Of a stretch of DNA of 40,876 nt, positions 20,114 through 22,200 are shown piece by piece. The notes beneath the pieces were generated by a model. The model did not search any database, had not been told where the DNA came from, and worked only from the letters and a program-made list of their open reading frames with translations. Position numbers and translations under genes: made by a program. Source of the stretch: an uncultured Prochlorococcus sp. (GTDB taxonomy: Bacteria > Cyanobacteriota > Cyanobacteriia > PCC-6307 > Cyanobiaceae); contig CACAXN010000009.1 of assembly GCA_902536455.1 (NCBI GenBank), positions 1 through 40,876 on the forward strand. Direction: 5' to 3'. Within the stretch, counting starts at the first letter, position 1. Every line of letters begins with the position of its first letter.

Positions 20114-20527
20114 TTAATTGAAAGGGAAAGTATTCTTAGTAGGAGATATAAAAAGCACTTCAAAAACAATTCCAGTCAAAGCAATAGGCAAAACCCAAAT
20201 AGCAATAAACCTATGATCAAAAAATCTTAAATGGTCTTCTCCTTTAAAAACACTTTTTAAAGAGGTGTACAAAGTTTCTGGTCTTTTATAGGAAGGGCCA
20301 TTTTTAATTGGAGAATATGGTTTTATAAATGCAGAGGAAGCTGCGAATTTTGCAATTTTTCTAATTATATAAATAGGTAATACCCAAAGGGCTAAATATC
20401 TTCCACCTAACCACTGTCTCGCATTAGGGAGAGCATATTCTTTAATAGATTTATTCTCTGGCATTCCAGATTCCAAATTCTTGTAGATATTTTCTAATGA
20501 GGATACTTTTTGTGATTTATTGATCAT
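20114..20527 (-). CDS. Two-span membrane protein, unknown
   Basis: 137 residues. Two similar segments, YLALWVLPIYIIRKI (~residue 44) and FIAIWVLPIALTGIVFEVLF (~residue 107), each preceded by a Arg-rich motif (RQWLGGRY / LRFFDHRF), suggest an internal duplication. Each half has one membrane span. No known family recognised. It is the last gene at the left edge of unit E and starts with ATG at 20525-20527. Confidence 0.65.
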   Translation of the reverse strand: MINKSQKVSSLENIYKNLESGMPENKSIKEYALPNARQWLGGRYLALWVLPIYIIRKIAKFAASSAFIKPYSPIKNGPSYKRPETLYTSLKSVFKGEDHLRFFDHRFIAIWVLPIALTGIVFEVLFISPTKNTFPFN

Positions 20528-21115: not shown

Positions 21116-21304
21116 TTAATTTTTTGTTAAAAAGATATTCTCTAAAATATAACTTTGTTCTATTGATTCATTTTTAAGAGAAATATTTTTTGGCAAATTA
21201 TTATTCGTAGAATTAAAAGCACCCCATTTTTTTAGCCAAAATAAGGTATAAAAAAATGCAATTAAAAATGGTGCTCCAACAATTAAAAATCTGATGTCCA
21301 TCAA
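21116..21304 (-). CDS. Small membrane protein related to the PsbF-like gene's N-terminus
   Basis: 62 residues (61 if the second Met is used). MDIRFLIVGAPFLIAFFYTL FWLKKWGAFN resembles the first 30 residues of the 98-residue neighbour ([29 protein letters not shown]). The C-terminal half is polar and Asn-rich. It begins 9 bases after the neighbour's stop, so they form an operon. A duplicated N-terminal span is the simplest reading. Confidence 0.65.
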   Translation of the reverse strand: MMDIRFLIVGAPFLIAFFYTLFWLKKWGAFNSTNNNLPKNISLKNESIEQSYILENIFLTKN

Positions 21305-21313
21305 AATTTCCTA

Positions 21314-21610
21314 TTAATAAGTTTTAAACTGCATTGCCAATATTGCTCCAAGGAAGAAAACAGTTGGAATCCCTAGGGCATTAACTGCTGCGGTTCTTAC
21401 AGTAAAAACTGGATAACCTTCTGCTGGTCTGCCAACATCAGGAATTAATGCTGAATCTTCCCATACTTGATAATTTTTAAAAGGAGTTACTCCCTTCTTT
21501 GGTAATCCTAGTGGCGTTAATCTAAATACATCCCACCTACCTAACCAAAAGACTGTAAATATCCATGAGAATATTATTGGTGTAATAACAAGTAAAATCC
21601 TGAAATCCAT
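21314..21610 (-). CDS. PsbF-like (cytochrome b559 beta-like) protein without the heme His
   Basis: 98 residues. Residues 66-95 read [30 protein letters not shown], very close to the PsbF span (YP.FTVRW.AVH.LG.PT.FFLGAIAAMQF). The His that ligates heme in PsbF is replaced by Asn77. An extra N-terminal span (residues 4-24) and a 40-residue linker ([12 protein letters not shown]...) precede it; genuine PsbF is about 40-45 residues. It therefore cannot form the normal bis-His heme and may instead occupy or modify the cytochrome b559 site in photosystem II. Role inferred. Start at ATG 21608-21610. Confidence 0.75.
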
Positions 21611-21831: not shown

Positions 21832-22200
21832 ATGGAAACCTTTAGATTCTTACTTTTTGGTTTTGCAGGGGTTAGTGTAGTTTTCTGGGTGGCAATAATA
21901 GCTTTATGGCATGCATACATGTTTCCAAGATTCTTCAATGAAGATAAAGGTTTAAATTCTGTTATCAATCAAGAAATAAAAGTTTCAACAGATTCAATTT
22001 TAGGCAGTTTGGTTAACAGCAATAATTTCAGAAATAGAGATAAATATTCAATGAAAGGTTTTGTTATTGCAGACTTTTCATCTGCAAGTAGTAATTTCAA
22101 ACTAAATAAACTCTACACAACAGTAATGATTGGAGTTACTTTTGCAAGTTTTATTTTTCTCACTTATGGATTAAGCAGTTCAATAACAACGGTAAGTTAA
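21832..22200 (+). CDS. Two-span membrane protein, unknown
   Basis: 122 residues. The first span is FRLLLFGFAGVSV-type (residues 4-27) followed by WHAYMFPRFF; the second is near the C-terminus (YTTVMIGVTFASFIFLTYGL). The middle is polar. The next ORF starts at the base directly after its stop. No family recognised. It faces away from the PsbF-like operon across a 220-base AT-rich gap likely to hold both promoters. Confidence 0.6.
   Translation: METFRFLLFGFAGVSVVFWVAIIALWHAYMFPRFFNEDKGLNSVINQEIKVSTDSILGSLVNSNNFRNRDKYSMKGFVIADFSSASSNFKLNKLYTTVMIGVTFASFIFLTYGLSSSITTVS

Follow-up and report, generated by a model that had tools for sequence, protein, structure and literature searches.

The window (the whole 40,876-nucleotide stretch of Prochlorococcus DNA that was analysed) encodes a new variant of the beta subunit of cytochrome b559, in which a PsbY-like membrane span is fused to a PsbF-like span that has asparagine in place of the heme-ligating histidine. 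The earlier note on this DNA had pointed to the substitution; the finding is confirmed, and it is larger than first noted. The fusion has quite probably replaced both PsbF and PsbY in the genus of NATL2A type (g3) and in the genome G310, where cytochrome b559 would be without bis-histidine ligation, and elsewhere it would serve as an alternative beta subunit.

It seems reasonably likely that Prochlorococcus of the NATL2A type and its sister lineage carry out oxygenic photosynthesis without a bis-histidine cytochrome b559, one fusion of the asparagine type standing in for PsbF and PsbY, and that in picocyanobacteria the b559 site, supposedly universal, was rebuilt on two or more occasions, since genome G399 is changed on the alpha side (PsbE H23Q, R18K, Y19F). 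A free-living, culturable group that apparently lacks the histidine of the beta subunit is a natural experiment on the purpose of the heme. The fusion also ties PsbY physically to the beta subunit; according to passages of PMC9214863, the loss of PsbY in Arabidopsis abolishes the high-potential form. Finally, it draws attention to a neighbouring membrane protein, so far uncharacterised, whose occurrence goes along with its own.

The features are collected in Table 1. Strain names are used on the assumption that G416 (g3) is NATL2A, G114 is SS120, G223 is MIT9211, G358 is AS9601, G217 is MED4, G163 is MIT9301 and G493 is MIT9515.

Table 1. Coordinates of the features discussed (positions in the window unless a locus is named)
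Feature	Position	Strand	Basis or remark
PsbY-PsbF fusion ('cytochrome b559 subunit beta, long form')	21314..21610	minus	98 aa, ATG start
PsbY-like N-terminal membrane span and flank, residues 1-31	21518..21610	minus	hhalign against PsbY; weak alignment to PDB 7ymi chain F
Hydrophilic linker, about residues 32-65 (about 34 residues)	21416..21517	minus	alignment and AlphaFold helix limits; presumed cytoplasmic
PsbF-like span, residues 66-96, with Thr73 and Asn77	21323..21415	minus	PF00283 and frame survey
Codon of Asn77 (heme-ligand position)	21380..21382	minus	residue 77 invariant in 22 aligned long forms
Stand-alone tandem paralogue of the PsbY-like span	21116..21304	minus	62 aa from TTG, 61 from ATG
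Linked conserved membrane protein	20114..20527	minus	137 aa, two 'R(Y/F)xA(L/I)WVLPI' spans; adjoins the long form
Small membrane protein, divergently transcribed	21832-22200	plus	beside the long form in NATL2A, G137, G310 and AS9601
PsbE of G399	L240, 1612-1884	minus	heme His changed to Gln

Identity and parts of the long form

NCBIfam already has a name for the family: the protein matches NF002720 ('cytochrome b559 subunit beta, long form') end to end (residues 1-98, 204.2 bits, cut-off 127), and it matches Pfam cytochrome b559 (PF00283) over residues 66-88 (32.2 bits, cut-off 30). It scores under the cut-offs of the PsbF equivalog TIGR01333 (53.8 bits, cut-off 61.15) and of Pfam PsbY (PF06298, 12.6 bits, cut-off 24). 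The best matches in the PDB are chain F of 7ymi (E 4.8e-11, over its PsbF stretch) and then PsbF chains, from E 1.6e-10. The likeness to PsbF is therefore due to homology, not to chance in a hydrophobic span, which the earlier note had named as one way in which its reading could fail, and its description of the C-terminal third as almost PsbF, with Asn77 for the heme histidine, stands.

Like PsbF (PF00283, TIGR01333), this third has a 31-residue span of the form YPxFTVR...P(T/S)VFFLGAI.AMQF, in which the arginine of the heme propionate is kept. Unlike PsbF, the fusion has Asn for the heme His and Thr for Trp, carries an extra N-terminal span and a linker, and is encoded outside psbEFLJ. The descriptions of NF002720 and NF002717, the 'long form' family to which it belongs, are silent on the missing ligand, on the PsbY-like front and on its status as the sole such protein in one group. 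Of 142 relatives, the best 80 all carry titles that read Prochlorococcus or uncultured Synechococcaceae, and the nearest named ones among these 80 are Prochlorococcus single-cell genomes. The AlphaFold model has helices at residues 3-25 and 71-97 only, with a mean pLDDT of 61, a low confidence that makes it too weak for geometry.

The extra span, which is conserved in all 22 aligned sequences, is PsbY-like by alignment, and the protein is on this evidence a fusion of two neighbouring subunits of photosystem II. This is an addition to the earlier note, which had not seen the relation to PsbY. When 16 long-form N-termini were compared by hhalign with 12 PsbY sequences, the probability was 95% and the score 35.0 over 31 columns starting at residue 1. 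The controls PsbL, PsbJ and PsbF scored 8.5, 12.6 and 15.8 against the same span, and the top score among 200 column-shuffled PsbY alignments was 17.2 (0/200 reach 35.0). Searches with other inputs gave less: residues 1-25 of the window fusion align weakly with the PsbY part of 7ymi chain F (i-Evalue 3.8), a profile search of the N-terminal span against the PsbY stretch in the PDB was also weak (E 0.65), and Pfam PsbY was not listed for any of the five fusions scanned as proteins.

Two stand-alone relatives bear on the same point. G399 has a free-standing relative of the N-terminal span (IDFRLLIVLAPIVASVAWTAFWLFRWGVFNLDN...), which scores 78 by hhalign against the span of the long form, matches a PsbY chain in the PDB (E 4.3e-4) and reaches 24.5 bits with Pfam PsbY as a protein (cut-off 24), although only 22.5 bits, under that cut-off, in the genome search. 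The tandem paralogue in the window is matched within its own genome with E=2.2e-6, and its hhalign scores are 62.6 to the N-terminal domain of the fusion and 29.6 to PsbY. Stand-alone PsbY-like frames number 77 in 86 loci (L004-L089). The span differs from PsbY (PF06298), with which it aligns over those 31 columns, in that it is joined to PsbF and is without the 'W..FNI' pattern of PsbY.

A comparable arrangement has a solved structure. Chain F of PDB 7ymi and 7ymm (99 aa, 'Photosystem II protein Y'), presumably from Acaryochloris marina, is matched by the long-form profile and also joins a PsbF stretch and a PsbY stretch in a single chain. It reads as a PsbF-PsbY fusion in the reverse order: PsbF comes first and, unlike in the long form, the heme histidine is kept (RWLAVHTLG).

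Occurrence of the long form and probable loss of psbF and psbY

The survey covered 200 genomes of the window's family, comprising the window's own incomplete genome (63%, 1.0 Mb) and others of at least 95% completeness. The long form is present in 49 of them: 26/38 in the window's genus, 12/12 in g3, 1/1 in g12, 3/3 in g2, 2/2 in g6, 1/1 in g157 and 4/23 in g4. In a sample of the phylum (386 genomes), matches of this strength came only from members of the window's family, and a phage origin was rejected, as a tblastn search of 50,697 phage records gave no match at E<=0.01. The gene lies outside psbEFLJ in the window and in 11 other contexts, and psbF occupies the operon where it is present.

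In 13 of the 200 genomes, that is all 12 of g3 and G310, the long form is the only PsbF-type match. Eleven of the 13 have a readable psbE, and in all 11 psbL comes immediately after psbE, then psbJ, with no psbF between (in G416, psbL starts 30 bases past the psbE stop). PF00283 matches only psbE and the fusion in these 11, and only the fusion in the drafts G448 and G470, in which psbE was not found; the operon counts leave out these two drafts and G489, which has no psbE or psbF match. Genes of the D1/D2 type were found in the three long-form-only genomes tested (G416, G137 and G310), and NATL2A produces oxygen in culture, as stated in a passage of PMC6517427. The suggestion that the protein could replace PsbF is supported at the level of genomes.

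The apparent loss extends to PsbY. In the profile search PsbY is below the cut-off in 13/13 long-form-only genomes, and it passes in all 15 tested genomes that have the long form and a further family match (G489 among them) and in 16 of the 18 tested genomes that have canonical psbF only. The exceptions are G399 and G391 (g148). G391 has canonical psbE-psbF, no long form and no PsbY match at E<=0.5, so that PsbY loss alone need not imply the fusion. Canonical psbF itself varies: it has the FTIRW variant in MED4 and the FTVRFF variant (FTVRFFAVH, with the histidine kept) in G399.

A structural argument points the same way. PsbY adjoins PsbE and PsbF in solved photosystem II (passages of PMC7184784 and PMC4823308), with an antiparallel orientation to them in that of the green alga C. 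ohadii (in part of PMC10416949). A hairpin of PsbY and PsbF with a cytoplasmic linker therefore fits without rearrangement: the N-terminal span would run from lumen to cytoplasm, the linker would join the two spans on the cytoplasmic side, and the PsbF span would return from cytoplasm to lumen. The fusion would thus pair with PsbE in the PsbF site and supply the PsbY helix too, a placement in photosystem II that we infer from sequence and genome content. According to passages of PMC9214863, assembly of photosystem II requires both alpha and beta subunits in Synechocystis, Chlamydomonas and tobacco. As the beta subunit is needed in the species tested, its site should be filled where psbF is missing, and no candidate other than the fusion was found. 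In g3 and G310 it would then be the sole beta-type subunit, having taken over from psbF and psbY. It counts against this explanation that most heme-ligand mutants of Synechocystis and Chlamydomonas accumulate little photosystem II, as is also stated there.

The other long-form genomes are different. A further family match accompanies the long form in 36/49, and canonical psbF was seen in the operon of 14 two-form genomes, where examined, and in the window's own. In the window's genome canonical psbE and psbF lie on a different contig and a canonical psbY at positions 299-391 of the window. Since the canonical psbE-psbF pair persists there, the fusion could only compete with PsbF, the second of the roles that the earlier note had considered, or coexist with it as an alternative subunit. 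There is about an even chance that in two-form strains the fusion takes the place of PsbF and PsbY in a sub-population of photosystem II, for example in certain light or during assembly or repair, which is compatible with replacement in g3 and G310. Besides the co-occurrence of the two forms, the strong conservation of the long form (pN/pS 0.05, see below) and a regulated 'PsbF-like' transcript in MIT9312 (a passage of PMC6517427) favour such a conditional role. This role by itself leaves the 13 fusion-only genomes unexplained, and 12/38 genomes of the window's genus manage without the long form, which must therefore be dispensable there.

The MIT9312 transcript of the 'PsbF-like protein', which we infer to be the long form, decreases under one leachate, as do those of psbB, J, K, T and O. 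The proteome of SS120 includes PSBF_PROMA (in part of PMC5451487), a detection that is ambiguous because SS120 carries both forms. The long form has been named by annotators, and there is a single printed mention of the 'PsbF-like' gene of MIT9312 (PMC6517427, in the passage concerned); no functional description of it, and none of the asparagine substitution, the PsbY fusion or the psbF loss in the NATL2A group, was found in the open-access literature searched (titles, starts of abstracts and passages).

Changes in PsbE accompany the loss of psbF. Among 44 PsbE sequences compared over 50 columns (T. elongatus numbering), T26A, I/L32V and T40S are present in 11/11 psbF-less genomes and in 0/33 others, and these are the only three columns that separate the two sets. 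T26 has been mutated together with H23 and Y19 in studies of b559 in T. elongatus (passages of PMC4709441). In a tree of the proteins Ycf48 (42 genomes) and MTAP (29 of these), g3 groups with G310 with a support of 73. Given this sister relation, the PsbE changes may go back to one ancestral event, and T26A cannot be counted as independent evidence of co-evolution.

G399 mirrors this case. Its PsbE has H23Q, R18K, Y19F and S16D, plus I14L, a change at residue 24 and A33S, none of which occurs in the other 43 sequences, and its PsbF is canonical with the histidine. The genome is a single contig of 2.03 Mb in which D1/D2-type genes are present. Judged from these sequences, the b559 site was altered independently in G399, in the alpha subunit.

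Asparagine at the heme-ligand position and the fate of the heme

Frames from all loci were chosen with a PsbF pattern in which the ligand and tryptophan positions were left free, so that the selection was blind to both. All 102 long-form frames so chosen have Asn at the ligand position and Thr at the nearby Trp position, whereas the short PsbF frames from the same selection have His in 33/33 and Trp in 32 (Phe in 1). Another selection, which demanded YPVFTVRT, gave Asn in 103/103. No substitute histidine is present from the proline of the first span onward in any of the 102 frames. Of 15 long forms checked, 14 have AAT as the codon of Asn77 and one has AAC. Across the 22 aligned sequences the extra N-terminal span, the asparagine at residue 77 and the propionate arginine are conserved, and within the fusion conservation is highest in the PsbF-like span. 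Over its 31 codons the mean pN is 0.037, the mean pS 0.74 and the ratio pN/pS 0.05 (15 long forms, 105 pairs, uncorrected), values that indicate strongly purifying selection. The uniform asparagine and this low ratio indicate that the residue is genuine and maintained by selection, and the possibility of a single-strain error, raised in the earlier note, falls away.

With Asn and Thr in place of His and Trp, the usual bis-histidine ligation is impossible in a cytochrome b559 built from PsbE and the fusion. The preferred view of what happens to the heme, to which we give roughly one chance in two, is that it would be kept by PsbE through a single histidine ligand, with Asn or an open site opposite. 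Indeed, Arg8, Arg18, Tyr19 and His23 of PsbE are retained in each of the 11 psbF-less genomes read, as are the propionate arginine and the invariant asparagine in the fusion, and both sets of residues favour a heme with one histidine.

As the main alternative, the fusion could fill the PsbF site for structural purposes only, cytochrome b559 being an apo-protein in the psbF-less genomes. This is possible, if somewhat doubtful, and compatible with the replacement of PsbF. The loss of both His and Trp in all 102 frames, with no other histidine from the first-span proline onward, agrees with it, as does T26A in PsbE. It also has a precedent in T. elongatus, where the alpha mutants H23A and H23M assemble active photosystem II with apo-b559 (passages of PMC9214863 and PMC4709441). 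These mutants belong to an engineered series (H23A, H23M, Y19F and T26P) which alters the same pocket, but they are single laboratory changes in PsbE, whereas the change described here is natural, lies in the beta subunit and is fixed across genera. Against a heme-free site, drift would be expected to erode the PsbE residues just listed, and the arginine and asparagine of the fusion, if no heme were bound.

That the long form derives from PsbF but has an unrelated role in the membrane, for example regulatory or in another complex, is unlikely. Its location outside psbEFLJ in the contexts read, its linkage to an uncharacterised membrane protein and its absence from several genomes of the window's genus would suit such a role, but no other beta-type PF00283 protein was found in the 13 genomes, D1/D2 genes being present in the three tested, and its other half resembles PsbY, the subunit next to PsbF. 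Very unlikely is a heme held by the histidines of two PsbE in psbF-less strains, the fusion being only a PsbY-like accessory: His23 is conserved in the 11 genomes read and a homodimeric b559 has reportedly been reconstituted in vitro, but both subunits are needed for assembly in the three organisms cited above, and an accessory role would not demand that the PsbF-like span be the most conserved part. The chance that the asparagine is a sequencing error or the frame a pseudogene is negligible. The frameshifted C-terminus of the long form in G294 (L102) speaks for it, but 102/102 Asn, the pN/pS of 0.05 and seven single-contig genomes that have the long form only (G137, G366, G416, G421, G435, G442 and G310) speak against it; the 102/102 Asn, the pN/pS and the PDB matches rule out error, pseudogene and chance hydrophobic match alike.

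Genes next to the long form

At E<=10 neither Pfam nor NCBIfam gives a match for the linked membrane protein. Its gene adjoins that of the long form here, and the same holds for 8 of 11 other contexts compared (AS9601, NATL2A, G137, G310, SS120, MIT9211, G165 and G350) and does not lie beside it in G494, G501 and G400. In a set of 40 genomes, a full-length homologue is present in 17/19 with the long form (not in G494 and G501) versus 2/21 without (Fisher p 5e-7, uncorrected for relatedness). Among the remaining 19 genomes without the long form, the gene is partial in G276 and reduced to fragments in G163 and G519, and it was not found in 16. G399 has a near full-length copy elsewhere on its chromosome. 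This pattern makes the protein a candidate for association with photosystem II.

Several smaller observations concern the same loci. In G399 and G259 the divergently transcribed small membrane protein is also encoded close to the neighbour gene. In G259 (L302) the long form is missing between neighbours that persist, and in G163 (L303) only fragments of the neighbour gene are left. In the long form of G294 the frameshifted C-terminus reads ..PTVFFSRSYFSNAV, which may reflect an early pseudogene or a sequencing error. Sequences of about 48 bp recur around the G259 and G163 sites in several genomes of the window's genus, and they may mediate loss.
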